DNA of 64,000 bases, taken from the NCBI RefSeq assembly GCF_030542965.1, contig NZ_JAUAOA010000001.1, forward strand, positions 62,001-126,000. The letters run 5' to 3'. This DNA comes from Azotosporobacter soli. GTDB lineage: Bacteria > Bacillota > Negativicutes > SG130. Shown one piece after another: positions 31,708 through 36,977 of the stretch. The notes under the pieces are model-generated. The model had not been told where the DNA came from, made no database searches, and worked only from the letters and a program-made list of their open reading frames with translations. Position numbers and translations under genes: made by a program. Position 1 is the first letter of the stretch. Each line of letters begins with the position of its first letter.

Positions 31708-32454
31708 CTATTTATACTGCCAGGCGCAGCAGCGTTTCTCCAGTTCATCAAGCAGCGCGAAGAGCACCAGCCCCATGCTGCTCAGCACGACAATGCCCGA
31801 ATACATCTCGAGATAATCGACGCGCATCCAGGCATCCATGATGAAATAGCCCATTCCGTACTGCGTACCGAACGTCTCGGTAAAAAACAGCACCGATATC
31901 GCGGTCGCCATCGCAATGCGCAGCGAGGTCAGAAATTTCGGCAGCGACGCCGGAATCAAGATCTCGCGCAGGATCGCCGCATAGCCTGCGCCCAACGAAT
32001 AGAGCGGATAATAGGTTTCTTTCGGAATGCCTTTCACACTGTCGCGCACCGCGATCACGACCTGAAAGACGATGATAAGAAATATCATCAAAATCTTCGA
32101 CGTTTCCCCTAAGCCGCAAAGCAGCATCAGAACCGGCAGCATTGCAATCTTCGGCACCGGATAGGTCAGATAAACAAGCGGCGACAGCGCCCGATCCCAA
32201 CTGGGGAAGTAGCCCATACCAAGGCCGAGCGGAATGCCGATCAGCACCGACAGGACAACGCCGGCGACGATCCGCCATAAACTGTACACGCTGTGCAGCG
32301 CGATTTTCGCGAAAAAAATTCCGGCCAGATTCTCCAGCACGACCCAGGGCGACGGGATGATTGGCTGCTGCAACGCGGCGGCGACCGCATACCAAACGCC
32401 GAAAAAGATTACGATGCCGTAGAGATGCCAAATGCCCGTTATTGGTTTCTTCAT
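31708..32454 (-). CDS. ABC transporter permease, nitrate/sulfonate/taurine type
   Basis: 248 residues from ATG 32454, which overlaps the ATPase stop (ATGA). Six membrane helices and the EAA loop (RDSVKGIPKETYYPLYSLGAGYAAILREILIPASLPKFLTSLRIAMA) that docks to the ATPase mark a SsuC/TauC-type permease. It forms the translocation pore with the ATPase and lipoprotein encoded upstream in the same operon. Confidence 0.92.
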   Translation of the reverse strand: MKKPITGIWHLYGIVIFFGVWYAVAAALQQPIIPSPWVVLENLAGIFFAKIALHSVYSLWRIVAGVVLSVLIGIPLGLGMGYFPSWDRALSPLVYLTYPVPKIAMLPVLMLLCGLGETSKILMIFLIIVFQVVIAVRDSVKGIPKETYYPLYSLGAGYAAILREILIPASLPKFLTSLRIAMATAISVLFFTETFGTQYGMGYFIMDAWMRVDYLEMYSGIVVLSSMGLVLFALLDELEKRCCAWQYK

Positions 32455-33203
32455 TTTGCCCAGTCCTCTTTCACCGTCTTGCGCAGCGACGAACAAAGCG
32501 CAAAAAACGACGGCTGATTTCGAATATCGTCCAAGCCGAAGAGCGGATTGTCGATCACCTTATGAATTCGTCCCGGCGACGGCGACAGGACGACGATCTT
32601 CTGGCCCAGATAAACCGCTTCCTCCACCTGATGCGTGACCAGAACGGTCGAAACCGCATGTTTGCGCCAAACGCGCAGAAACAAATCCTGTATCTCTTCA
32701 CGGCTCATCGCATCGAGCGCGGAAAAAGGTTCGTCCATCAGCAACAAATCCGGTCGCAGCAAAAAACTGCGCGCCAACGCGACCCGCTGCTGTTGTCCGC
32801 CGCTCAATTCGCCGGGATAACGCTTTTCAAGGCCGCTTAAACCAAGCTGCTGCAGCAGATTTTCGAGACGCCGCGGCGTTTCGTCGTTCCACTGCCGTTT
32901 CAATTTCACGCCGAGGCAACTGTTTTCATACACATTGCGCCACGGCAGCAAGCCATAATCCTGCGGAATAAAACCGATTTTCTGCTGTTGCGGCCGGACC
33001 GCCTGACCGTCGATCTCGACGCTGCCCTGGTATTGCGTGATAATGCCGGCCAGTACCTTGAGTAGCGTCGATTTGCCGCTGCCGGACGGGCCGATGATGG
33101 CGCAGGTTTCCCCTGCCGCCAGTGCGAAATCAATCGCGTCCAGCGCGGTATGCAGCTCACCGTCCGCCGGGTACGACACCGTCAAATTACGAATCTGGAT
33201 CAT
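32451..33203 (-). CDS. ABC transporter ATP-binding protein (SsuB/TauB type)
   Basis: 250 residues. Walker A GPSGSGKST, signature LSGGQQQRVALARSF, Walker B LLLMDEPFSALD and the His switch VLVTHQVEEAVYLG are all present. Four bases separate it from the upstream lipoprotein gene, and it overlaps the downstream permease by four bases. It energises import of an oxyanion- or sulfonate-like solute. Confidence 0.95.
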   Translation of the reverse strand: MIQIRNLTVSYPADGELHTALDAIDFALAAGETCAIIGPSGSGKSTLLKVLAGIITQYQGSVEIDGQAVRPQQQKIGFIPQDYGLLPWRNVYENSCLGVKLKRQWNDETPRRLENLLQQLGLSGLEKRYPGELSGGQQQRVALARSFLLRPDLLLMDEPFSALDAMSREEIQDLFLRVWRKHAVSTVLVTHQVEEAVYLGQKIVVLSPSPGRIHKVIDNPLFGLDDIRNQPSFFALCSSLRKTVKEDWAK

Positions 33204-33207
33204 CTGC

Positions 33208-34155
33208 TTACCTCACAAACCGGTCGTCAACCAATTCCTGATATGAATACGTCGTCGTCAAGAGCTGCCGTTCCTTTAACCAGGCACCGACCGCCTCGAT
33301 ATCCTTCGCCTGCGGCGCGCTCGGTTTCTTGTATTGCGGCAAAACCAATGCATCCTTTACCTCTTTGGGAAAGCCGCCTTTTTCAATCAGCAAGTCGATA
33401 TAAGCGCTCATCGGTTCTTTCTCCAAATAGGCGACCGCTTTGGCATAAGCGCGGTATACGGCGCGGATCTCCTGTTCCTTATCGTTCACCGACTGGCGCG
33501 TAAAGAGCATCACGCCCGGATTGATTCCCAGTTGATCCGAGCTTTGCAAGACCCGCCCGCCGTTCTTAACGGCGACGCTGGCCAGAGGTTCCGGCAGCGT
33601 CGCTGCCGCGATTTTGCCGTTTTGCAGCATTTCAAGCCGGGTCGGTATTTGCGGAATCGCGATTTTGTTGAATTCGCCGGACGACAGCTTACCTTCGGCC
33701 GCCACCTTGTCGGTCACATATTCAATGATCGTGTTTTTCGAGATTGCAACGTCTTTGCCCTTCAAGTCCTGTATCGACGCAGCCGTTTCATTCTTGCCGA
33801 CAATCAGCTTGTAGCTGCCGGTCGTCAGCGAGGTAATCACGGTATCAAAGCCGCCTTTCCTGGCAAAGTTCTCCGCCAGCATGTCCGAAATCACGCCGTC
33901 CAGATTGCCGCTTTGCAGTGCGCTGTCGCGTTCGACCGCACTCTTGAAGAATTTCAGCGTCACCGTGACGCCTTCTTCCTTAAAGTAGCCTTTTTCCTGT
34001 GCAATAATGAACGGAATCGAATCCACATCCGGCATCACGCCGATCGTGACGCTTTTCGCGCTCGCAGCAGGCTTCTGTTCCTTATTCGCATCGCCGCAGC
34101 CGCCGAGCAGCGCCAACGCGCTAACCGCCAGGAGCAGCAGGATCATTTTCTTCAT
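33208..34155 (-). CDS. ABC transporter substrate-binding lipoprotein (NMT1/SsuA-like)
   Basis: 315 residues with signal peptide and lipobox LLGGC (Cys20). The mature domain has VTIGVMPDVDSIPFIIAQEKGYFKEEGVTVTLKFFKSAVERDSALQSGNLDGVISD, typical of periplasmic/extracellular binding proteins for nitrate, sulfonates or thiamine precursors. First gene of a three-gene operon (substrate-binding protein, ATPase, permease). The substrate is open: ThiY-like precursors or aliphatic sulfonates are both possible from sequence. Confidence 0.9.
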   Translation of the reverse strand: MKKMILLLLAVSALALLGGCGDANKEQKPAASAKSVTIGVMPDVDSIPFIIAQEKGYFKEEGVTVTLKFFKSAVERDSALQSGNLDGVISDMLAENFARKGGFDTVITSLTTGSYKLIVGKNETAASIQDLKGKDVAISKNTIIEYVTDKVAAEGKLSSGEFNKIAIPQIPTRLEMLQNGKIAAATLPEPLASVAVKNGGRVLQSSDQLGINPGVMLFTRQSVNDKEQEIRAVYRAYAKAVAYLEKEPMSAYIDLLIEKGGFPKEVKDALVLPQYKKPSAPQAKDIEAVGAWLKERQLLTTTYSYQELVDDRFVR

Positions 34156-34238: not shown

Positions 34239-34697
34239 TCAACGCTGCCAGTTCTGCAACTCGACGATGTTTCCTTCCGGATCGCGTGCATAGACGACCG
34301 TCAGCACGCCGAGCTCGCCGTAATCCTTCTTTACCAGCGCCCCGAGTTGGCTTCCGCCATGTTCCAGCAGATTGGCCAACACGTCTTCGACCGAATCCAC
34401 CTGAAACGCAAGATGTCCCAGGCCGCAGCGATTGACCGCGCCAAATGCACCGGACTCTTCTTCCGGCTCATAGCTGAATATCTCGAGCGTAGTCCCTGCG
34501 TCGCAGCCCGGCAAGCGCAGATGCATGCCCCGAATCGTCGCATTACTCAGCGTCGTCAATTGATCGACCCACTGCCCGGACAGATTTCTCTCCGGCGGCA
34601 ACGCTTCGCAGTCGAAGACCGCGACATAAAAATCGACCAGCTTCCGCCAGTCGCGGGCAATGATATTGGTGTGCACGTAACGGATGTCGTTTTTCAT
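34239..34697 (-). CDS. VOC family protein
   Basis: 152 residues. A vicinal-oxygen-chelate fold with motifs RYVHTNIIARDWRKLVDFYVAVFDCE, GTTLEIFSYEPEE, GLGHLAFQVDSVEDVLANLLEHGG and DPEGNIVELQNW. Putative metal ligands are the N-terminal His, the Glu in LEIFSY, the His in GHLAF and the Glu in VELQ. Related proteins include glyoxalase-like and catechol dioxygenase-like enzymes of unassigned function. Single gene with its own start at 34697. Confidence 0.85.
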   Translation of the reverse strand: MKNDIRYVHTNIIARDWRKLVDFYVAVFDCEALPPERNLSGQWVDQLTTLSNATIRGMHLRLPGCDAGTTLEIFSYEPEEESGAFGAVNRCGLGHLAFQVDSVEDVLANLLEHGGSQLGALVKKDYGELGVLTVVYARDPEGNIVELQNWQR

Positions 34698-34823: not shown

Positions 34824-34868
34824 AAAAAAAGAACAAGGCTCCGCCGAAGCGAACGCCTTGCCCTTTTT
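34824..34868 (-). terminator. Terminator of the flavodoxin-like reductase gene
   Basis: CAAGGC and GCCTTG arms with T-rich tracts on both strands. Confidence 0.75.
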
Positions 34869-35579
34869 TCACTGACCGCTCAAGACGCGGTCGAAATATT
34901 GATTCGCCTGTTCGATATACACCTCGTCCGGCAAAAACGACTGCGCCAGCGCTTCTTTCGTTTCCTTTGACAGCGCCTGTCCCTGCACGAGTTCGCCGCC
35001 TGCTTTGTTCAGCCATTGCAAATAGGTTGCAACGGACGGCAACTCCATACTCAGCATGCCGCCTTGCGAAGCATAAATTTCATCGAGCTGTTCCGTTTCC
35101 ATATGCAGTGCGACCCGCTGCACCCAGTGCGACATCGCCTGAAAGTGCGAGCGTTCCGGAAAACCGCAATTTGACAGCATCACCAATCGCGGCGCTTTTG
35201 CTCCCGCTTTCTTAGTATGGCGCGACTCACCGCTCGCAGTTTTGGCAAAATGCGGATCGCCGTTGACGATTAAGCGATCCATGAACACCTTCAGCATACC
35301 GGAAATCGTGTGAAAATAAAGCGGGCTAGCCAGAATCAACACATCCGCGCCTTCGATCGCCTCAAGGACTCCTGCCATGTCGTCTTTGATCGCGCAGCGG
35401 CCCGGCGTTTTCAGCCAGCAGGTAAAACAGCCAAGGCAGTGCTTGATTTCTTTTTCCGCCAAGAACACGTTTACCGTTTCCGCGCCCGCCGCTTGCGCGC
35501 CTTTTAATAACGCATCCGCCATGATCTGCGTATTGCTGCTTTTTCCTCGCGGACTTCCGTTGACCACAACAATTTTCAT
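34869..35579 (-). CDS. NADPH-dependent FMN reductase/flavodoxin-like protein
   Basis: 236 residues. N-terminal phosphate-binding loop VVNGSPRGKSSNTQIMADALLKGAQAAGAE and the CLGCFTCWLKTPGRCAIKDDM cysteine segment place it with the iron-sulfur flavoprotein-like NAD(P)H dehydrogenase/flavodoxin-2 group. ILASPLYFHTISGMLKVFMDRL is the second FMN loop. It would transfer electrons from NAD(P)H to a small acceptor or act in redox sensing. The HTH-desulfoferrodoxin gene lies 17 bases upstream on the same strand, so the two are probably co-transcribed. Confidence 0.88.
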   Translation of the reverse strand: MKIVVVNGSPRGKSSNTQIMADALLKGAQAAGAETVNVFLAEKEIKHCLGCFTCWLKTPGRCAIKDDMAGVLEAIEGADVLILASPLYFHTISGMLKVFMDRLIVNGDPHFAKTASGESRHTKKAGAKAPRLVMLSNCGFPERSHFQAMSHWVQRVALHMETEQLDEIYASQGGMLSMELPSVATYLQWLNKAGGELVQGQALSKETKEALAQSFLPDEVYIEQANQYFDRVLSGQ

Positions 35580-35596: not shown

Positions 35597-36187
35597 TTAG
35601 ATCAGCTGGTAGAACAGCCCATGCCTGGAACAGTGAAAATACAAGAGTCCGTGATTATATTTGTGAAACCAGAATTGAAGATTCCACTCCGGATATTGCT
35701 TCACAATAAACGCCTTATCACCGGTGACATAGGCCGCAAACGAAATATAATGCGCCTTCGTCATCTCATGCTGCGACGAAACATACACTTCGCCATCTTG
35801 CGGTTCGATCTGCAAACGGTGGCTTTCGTCCGCTTTTGCCGCAACCAGCGCATCTAGCCGCTTGCCGCAACAGGAAATGTTCGCCTCGCCGGTCGCGGTC
35901 ATTAAGTTTTTGCATTGTGGGCAGACGTAAAATTTTAACTTCTTCATATTTCCTCCTACTGCCTCATTGGGGACGAGTTCGCCCGCCAACATGTCTTCGA
36001 TATTGACGCCCAGCACTTGCGACAGTTCCGGCAGCAGCGACACGTCGGGGCAGCCCAGGCCGCGCTCCCATTTGCTGATCGCTTTATCGCTAATGTTCAA
36101 GAGATCCGCCACTTGCTTTTGCGTCATATCTTTTTCTTTCCGCAAACCGTAAATCAGTTTGCCGATTTTTTCGCAATCCAAATTCAT
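35597..36187 (-). CDS. XRE helix-turn-helix fused to a desulfoferrodoxin-like domain
   Basis: 196 residues from ATG 36187, with AAGGAG seven bases upstream. Residues about 5-65 form an XRE DNA-binding domain (LRKEKDMTQKQVADLLNISDKAISKWERGLGCPDVSLLPEL). From residue 81 the sequence follows desulfoferrodoxin (superoxide reductase). A rubredoxin-like centre I has Cys89-x2-Cys92 and Cys106-Cys107. A centre II pattern has Glu121, His123, His140 (QHEM), His146 (AHYISF), Cys186 and His189 (HCSRHG). All five expected iron ligands are present; the usual Lys after Glu121 is Ser. It is likely a superoxide/redox-sensing regulator, perhaps of the flavoprotein gene that follows. Confidence 0.82.
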   Translation of the reverse strand: MNLDCEKIGKLIYGLRKEKDMTQKQVADLLNISDKAISKWERGLGCPDVSLLPELSQVLGVNIEDMLAGELVPNEAVGGNMKKLKFYVCPQCKNLMTATGEANISCCGKRLDALVAAKADESHRLQIEPQDGEVYVSSQHEMTKAHYISFAAYVTGDKAFIVKQYPEWNLQFWFHKYNHGLLYFHCSRHGLFYQLI

Positions 36188-36440
36188 CACCTCGCTCCTT
36201 CAGTGTAGACGGCAGTAGGTTACCACGCAATAAACGAACCGTAGAGTTTCTTTTCTACTTTTCCCCTCTCTCTAACTTCTAACTTTGCGCTGCAAAAACC
36301 TGTTTAATTTTTCACCAAAGTCAAAAAGTCAAAGATTTCTTTTGTCCGCATGAGCTATTTTTTTAAAAACAGTTTTCTTCGCGTTAAATAAAGAAATTTG
36401 CGCTGTATCGTCCATTGCAGAGCGCTTTTATTTTTCGTAT
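36188..36440. other. AT-rich spacer upstream of the hsp20 promoter
   Basis: No gene is evident. The right part holds AGTCAAAAAGTCAAAG near 36319, two CtsR-like hexads with wrong spacing. The left part contains the control region of the XRE-desulfoferrodoxin gene. Confidence 0.5.
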
Positions 36441-36480
36441 TATAATAACAAGATTAGCACTCGCCGGTCGAGAGTGCTAA
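36441..36480 (+). promoter_or_regulatory. hsp20 promoter with CIRCE operator
   Basis: TATAAT at 36441-36446. TTAGCACTC at 36454-36462 and GAGTGCTAA at 36472-36480 are separated by exactly nine bases, the CIRCE consensus bound by HrcA. Confidence 0.95.
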
Positions 36481-36512
36481 TAAAGCAAATTCTGTACAGG
36501 GAGGAGATCATC

Positions 36513-36977
36513 ATGACAAATCTGATTCGTAGAGAAGAGTACAATACCCCTTCTTTATTCCGAAAAGGGATCAATGACATGTTTGAGAACTTTTTCGGTA
36601 CGGGCGTATTGTCACCGCTTAGCAACCTCTCGCAGTCTGGTTGGGCAACGGTCGTGCCGATCGACGTGATTGACAACGGCTCCGAGTATCGGCTGAAAGC
36701 AAACCTGCCGGGCCTTGAAAAGAAAGACGTCGATATCCAGTTAACGGACAACGTTCTGACGATTCGCGGCTCTTACGAGCAAAGCAACGAAGACAAGAAC
36801 AATCGTTATCTCCTGCAGGAACGGCGTTCGGGTTCTTTTTCCCGTTCCATCGCGTTCCATGAGGAAATCGTCAGCGATAAAATCACCGCCTGCTTCAAAG
36901 ACGGCATCCTCGAAGTCACAATTCCGAAAGCAGAGCAAAAGCAAAATCAATCCATTAAGATCGAGATTGCCGACTAA
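36513..36977 (+). CDS. Small heat-shock protein Hsp20
   Basis: 154 residues from ATG 36513 with GGGAGGAGA upstream. The alpha-crystallin domain (about 50-145) includes VPIDVIDNGSEYRLKANLPGLEKKDVDIQLTDNVLTIRGSYEQ and FKDGILEVTIPKAEQ. It is an ATP-independent holdase. A CIRCE element next to its -10 shows HrcA control, as is common in Firmicutes. Single gene ended by the terminator at 36992-37043. Confidence 0.95.
   Translation: MTNLIRREEYNTPSLFRKGINDMFENFFGTGVLSPLSNLSQSGWATVVPIDVIDNGSEYRLKANLPGLEKKDVDIQLTDNVLTIRGSYEQSNEDKNNRYLLQERRSGSFSRSIAFHEEIVSDKITACFKDGILEVTIPKAEQKQNQSIKIEIAD

Follow-up and report, generated by a model that had tools for sequence, protein, structure and literature searches.

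A helix-turn-helix domain fused to a divergent desulfoferrodoxin: a probable autoregulated sensor with a conserved promoter element

When the fold of an oxygen-defence enzyme is found joined to a DNA-binding domain, does the gene encode an enzyme or a gene switch? The question is raised by a 196-residue open reading frame of Azotosporobacter soli, in which an XRE/HTH_3 domain is connected through a linker to a two-centre desulfoferrodoxin fold. The frame lies in the window, the whole stretch of 64,000 nucleotides that was analysed (contig NZ_JAUAOA010000001.1, positions 62,001 to 126,000), and its features are collected in Table 1. Fusions of a helix-turn-helix (HTH) domain to a superoxide reductase (SOR) are not new: the class HTH-Dx-SOR was named in 2011 in SORGOdb, with 19 proteins carrying an N-terminal HTH before Dx-SOR (Lucchetti-Miganeh et al. 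2011, PMC3116461). As described there, the class was sorted by domain only, with the centre I pattern quoted as CX2CX15CC. The window protein fits the definition (N-terminal HTH, CXXC...CC, and the His and Cys residues of centre II), though its centre I spacing, CX2CX13CC, is two residues shorter. Relative to that class description, the additions made here are the putative operator, the probable regulon, the loss of the Glu-Lys (EK) pair and of centre II ligands, and a possible internal ribosome-binding (SD) site. Our literature search returned no functional study of HTH-Dx-SOR proteins and no paper containing the operator string; Treponema denticola TrtA and Clostridium acetobutylicum Cap0037 were set aside as not belonging to the class.

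Table 1. Features of the fused gene and its operon, in window coordinates
Feature	Coordinates	Strand	Remarks
HTH-Dx-SOR gene	35597..36187	-	196 aa from ATG 36187; 194 aa if TTG 36181
XRE/HTH_3 DNA-binding domain, residues 5-68	35984..36175	-	Pfam HTH_3 4e-14 (match to residues 15-65); five helices in model; repressor matches
Centre I (desulforedoxin-like), CX2CX13CC, Cys89/92/106/107	35867..35923	-	kept in 71/71 fused homologues
Centre II domain: Glu121, Ser122 (Lys in enzymes), His123, His140, His146, Cys186, His189	35600..35833	-	five ligands complete in 47/71 homologues
Putative operator ACTCTACGGTTCGTTTATTG, extending into the -35 box	36228..36247	-	70/71 homologues; sole intergenic 0-1 mismatch site in genome
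Promoter TTGCGT-17-TACACT	36202..36230	-	-35 at 36225-36230, -10 at 36202-36207; homologue spacing, read from sequence
Internal GGAGG (35952-35956) and ATG (35945-35947) in GGNM linker	35945..35956	-	candidate second start, 116-aa Dx-SOR without HTH
Flavodoxin-fold NADPH-dependent FMN reductase, CX2CX2CX7C (iron-sulfur-flavoprotein-like)	34869..35579	-	FMN_red 2.8e-23; operon gene two, 17 bp downstream
Intrinsic terminator-like CAAGGC...GCCTTG TTCTTTTTTT, closing the two-gene operon	34824..34860	-	read from sequence; scan gives shorter stems there

Domain architecture and predicted fold

A sequence-only reading of this locus had described an XRE domain fused to a complete desulfoferrodoxin-like protein, and the open reading frame, the HTH_3 match and the predicted structure all agree with that description. 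In the AlphaFold model (mean pLDDT 89.9), residues 80-196 superpose on solved SORs at Z 13.2-14.5, with 114 residues aligned and an rmsd of 2.0-2.8 Å. Residues 2-71 superpose on the phage P22 c2 repressor at Z 12.2-12.4, and matches of the HTH part to P22 c2, SinR and the 434 repressor fall at Z of about 10-12. This superposition, together with the recurrence of the same architecture in 71 non-identical homologues, argues that the fusion is not a chance arrangement. The SOR domain is divergent, since Pfam PF01880 (Desulfoferrodox) gives no match to the window protein at E 0.1 and the NCBIfam dfx_rbo match (residues 83-166, 8.7e-6) is weak, lying under its cut-off; the Clostridial homologue L054 barely passes the PF01880 gathering cut-off (23.2 vs 22.2 bits).

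All ten residues that the same reading had assigned to the two iron centres (Cys89, Cys92, Cys106, Cys107, Glu121, His123, His140, His146, Cys186 and His189) stand where it placed them, and the replaced Lys after the Glu, also noted there, is confirmed as Ser122, giving a catalytic loop of E-S-H, not Glu-Lys-His. Four His and one Cys (His123, 140, 146 and 189, and Cys186) align with the centre II ligands of stand-alone SORs. Structure prediction, which had been proposed as a check on the centres, returned the SOR fold, and clustering of the iron ligands within it is implied by the superposition and by column equivalence with stand-alone SORs. The two-iron SORs (desulfoferrodoxins) 1dfx, 2ji1 and 1vzg and the Treponema pallidum SOR 1y07 have the fold and all centre I and II ligands in common with the window protein, which differs from them in its added HTH, Ser for Lys48, CX2CX13CC spacing, 19-24% identity and failure to reach Pfam Desulfoferrodox. 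With single-domain XRE repressors (P22 c2, SinR, 434 repressor) it shares the HTH fold and a partly palindromic promoter operator, whereas its C-terminal part is an iron-protein domain and theirs are peptidase-like or oligomerisation domains. HppE-type HTH-cupin enzymes, listed by VIA and Foldseek, were rejected as relatives, having the HTH alone in common.

Translation may begin two codons inside ATG 36187, at TTG 36181-36179, because relatives start at the equivalent codon, with GGAGGTGAT-like sites in front of it.

Conservation of the iron ligands among fused homologues

Homologues were gathered from 60 relatives and from a scan of a genome collection whose patterns did not touch the cysteines. 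Matches were found in 64 of 300 genomes at E 1e-15 in a survey of the class, some through a single domain, and in 29 of 398 genomes at E 1e-40 in a survey of the phylum. Centre I is complete in every one of the 71 non-identical full-length fusions analysed, a set chosen by a pattern demanding the four cysteines; among all 85 loci listed, no full-length fusion lacks them. In a tree of SOR domains, one strong branch (100/99) splits fused proteins from stand-alone SORs, consistent with a single fusion event. Four stand-alone Clostridial SORs (L087-L090) carry the canonical EKH, yet also a VKLYPEQEAQARF stretch characteristic of the fused proteins; they are a possible link between the two groups, and the tree places them with the stand-alone proteins. 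In one genome (G012), a second HTH-Dx-SOR-like copy (C2:130960-131473) shows a frame change at about 131290-131310 and is probably a pseudogene, with an intact copy on C5.

The EK pair is needed for fast superoxide reduction. It is kept in 3 of the 71 fused homologues, against EKH in 8 of 8 stand-alone SORs. All five centre II ligands are present in 47 of the 71 (26 of 42 window-type proteins and 21 of 29 others). We conclude that the invariant part of the protein is centre I, or whatever fold or dimer it holds together, since centre II is incomplete in 24/71 and centre I in none. The proposal that the iron centres form a sensor controlling DNA binding consequently survives in part: the protein is better read as a regulator that senses, but use of both centres as the sensor finds no support across the family. 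Absence of the Cys/His pattern from homologues had been named as evidence against the proposal; several lineages have indeed lost it for centre II, and the window protein itself is intact. Three fused homologues (L047, L049 and L060) have Ser in place of the axial Cys of centre II. Several of its His are gone as well (WYSAKEGLLYQ), and centre I and the operator element are kept; such natural centre-I-only variants are of experimental use.

Carriers of the fusion commonly encode another SOR. Of 23 carrier genomes tested, 20 have a separate SOR above the Pfam cut-off, including this genome, in which it is a one-iron protein with canonical EKH and without the operator in front. The fused proteins of two genomes (G003 and G034) also score weakly in the SOR search, but separate SORs are present there too. 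As most carriers have a separate SOR, the fused protein is not needed as an enzyme. Loss of the EK pair, a separate canonical SOR in the genome and the conserved operator element described below make the fused protein look like a sensor and not an enzyme.

A conserved promoter element, the operon and recurrent candidate target genes

A 20-bp consensus, ACTCTACGnnnCGTnnrTTG, lies upstream of 70 of the 71 fused genes. Scored with a matrix from which the gene's own site had been excluded, it outranks 99% of the shuffled upstream regions, and the best shuffles are far lower. Its final TTG doubles as the first three bases of the -35 box, a TATAAT-like -10 hexamer stands downstream at normal distance, and in one clade (e.g. 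L021 and L073) the element is a clean palindrome, CTACGnnnCGTAG. The sole site without mismatch in the window genome is the regulator's own promoter. Sites with 0-1 mismatch occur in 21 of 24 carrier genomes, compared to two chance-like sites in 24 class relatives without the gene. This co-occurrence across genomes ties the element to the protein and is the strongest new result. Conservation of the element further suggests that the HTH works on DNA, and from these sequence comparisons we regard the element as very probably the autoregulatory operator of the HTH-Dx-SOR protein.

Only sites with 0-1 mismatch were used, because those with 2-3 mismatches in the window genome (54) equal a reversed-pattern control (62). 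A slack -35 pattern likewise gives 17 matches in the window against 14.6 expected, and the site without mismatch alone counts. Little is claimed for a Clostridial regulon, since in these genomes the relaxed pattern is found about as often as its control. The only site with a single mismatch in the window genome (C10:25309) was dismissed as chance because it lies inside a multicopper oxidase reading frame, as were coding-sequence sites in G010, G019, G005 and G043 (transporter, EF-G and peroxiredoxin-like genes).

The FMN reductase is directly downstream of the regulator in the window and at five further loci (together L001, L014, L020, L098, L118 and L120), and most Clostridial members have none adjoining. 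The motif of Isf proteins is of the compact CX2CX2CX4-7C type. Isf and NADPH-dependent FMN reductases share the FMN_red fold and a compact Cys motif with the operon partner, in which cluster binding is putative; its PDB sequence matches are 7d38 (Cd1) and 1rli alone. Additional intergenic sites of the element precede FMN reductases with CX2CX2CX7C in six genomes (G005, G043, G009, G044, G026 and G114). Genes for small GIY-YIG-like proteins are preceded by the element in G005, G043, G114 and G302; the G302 copy matches Pfam at 8.4e-4, under the cut-off, and the G005 copy, without a match, was grouped by eye.

Some of these target operons seem to be copies in which the regulator was lost and the operator kept, because fragments of the HTH gene remain after the promoter. 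At L157 (G005) and L248 (G114), operator and promoter are retained before FMN reductase or GIY-YIG-like genes, with HTH scraps reading MQNNRVGNIII and MNISDK, respectively. Such operons fit control in trans by the remaining copy, but several target sites resemble the surviving promoters of decayed HTH-Dx-SOR copies, and some could be relics.

The surroundings of the operon hold other systems. Downstream, beyond a glyoxalase-like gene (34239-34697), and separated from the operon by the terminator, lies a nitrate/taurine-type ABC transporter (31708-34155; substrate-binding protein, ATPase and permease). On the other side, an intergenic perfect CIRCE element, TTAGCACTC-N9-GAGTGCTAA (36454-36480; the HrcA operator), adjoins the regulator gene and precedes a divergent small heat-shock (Hsp20-like) gene (36474-36977, forward strand), whose real start is likely ATG 36510.

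Proposed mechanism, competing readings and a possible second product

We hypothesize, and consider it fairly probable, that the HTH-Dx-SOR protein is an autoregulated transcription factor, likely a repressor, with a small regulon and a SOR fold turned from enzyme to sensor. Its XRE domain would bind the partly palindromic CTACGnnnCGTAG-like operator, which abuts and overlaps its own -35 box, and would most likely repress its own promoter. The regulon would comprise its own operon and the FMN reductase with the ISF-like motif, which lies in cis in the window but in trans in relatives, as well as the GIY-YIG-like protein in some genomes. The Fe(Cys)4 centre I would be the indispensable element of the sensor, and the His4Cys centre II, where kept, could let the protein react with superoxide, peroxide or O2. 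Candidate signals are O2, superoxide, NO and iron. If the iron is oxidised or lost, this may then rearrange the two HTH domains of a dimer and release the promoter, with the flavoprotein acting as an electron donor or an O2 scavenger. If true, an oxygen-defence enzyme fold has been converted to a gene switch in strict anaerobes. The 20-bp element, conserved across families of anaerobes, the short target list and the split between centres I and II make this function addressable by simple binding and reporter tests.

The window protein has kept Glu121, His123 and an intact centre II and may thus retain some SOR activity; it might be a functioning superoxide reductase and, at the same time, the regulator of its own gene, receiving electrons from the partner flavoprotein. 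The operon shared with a flavin reductase, and the retention of Glu121 and of all centre II ligands in the window protein, would suit such a dual role, but almost no member keeps the Lys, 24/71 have an incomplete set of centre II ligands, and the genome encodes a separate canonical SOR; we judge this reading improbable. We give just as little weight to the two centres being a sensor of metal status (iron or zinc), or a mere structural dimerisation module, for which the signal would be iron availability and not an oxygen species. An invariant centre I beside a dispensable reactive centre II accords with that idea, against which stand the facts that two thirds of the members have kept centre II despite deep divergence and that the target is a flavoprotein, not an iron-uptake gene. 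As to the sign of control, the operator abuts the -35 box with its centre near -44, and several -10/-35 boxes are weak, as would be expected of an activator in class II position whose iron form turns the operon on. However, the conserved TTG of the -35 box belongs to the putative bound element itself, and many copies have good promoters (TTGAAT-17-TACAAT) needing no activator, so that we find activation rather unlikely and prefer repression.

The linker between the domains may carry a second translation start. In the 42 window-type genes it reads G-G-N-M, encoded nearly always by GGAGG-N-AAT/AAC-ATG, and GGAGG stands just before the linker codon in 37 of the 42, against 0 of 29 others. The first linker Gly (Gly78) is GGA in 36 of 40 genes vs 14.5 expected from codon usage, relatedness inflating such column counts; the only more extreme columns are two of Ser, whose codon blocks are unlinked by single changes. 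The SD is kept despite changed amino acids in L071 (Glu-Gly, GCGGAGGGTAATATG) and L058 (Glu-Ile, AAGGAGATCAATATG), and the linker Met falls where stand-alone SORs begin. Conversely, a gap of 4 nt between SD and ATG is short, synonymous shuffles gene by gene mostly fall short of significance, and the per-gene hybridisation-energy test carries little weight, Gly-Gly-Asn being encoded by G-rich codons in any case; an open mRNA at the linker was discarded as evidence for a start, being seen in both subfamilies. The window-type linker state looks ancestral, and the internal GGAGG-ATG may therefore be a leftover of the fusion, kept in place by the protein sequence. We suggest, tentatively, that the gene might make two proteins: the full HTH-Dx-SOR and a 116-residue HTH-less Dx-SOR from the internal GGAGG-N4-ATG. 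The short form, if made, could pair with the regulator to tune or poison DNA binding, or be a redox-active partner.
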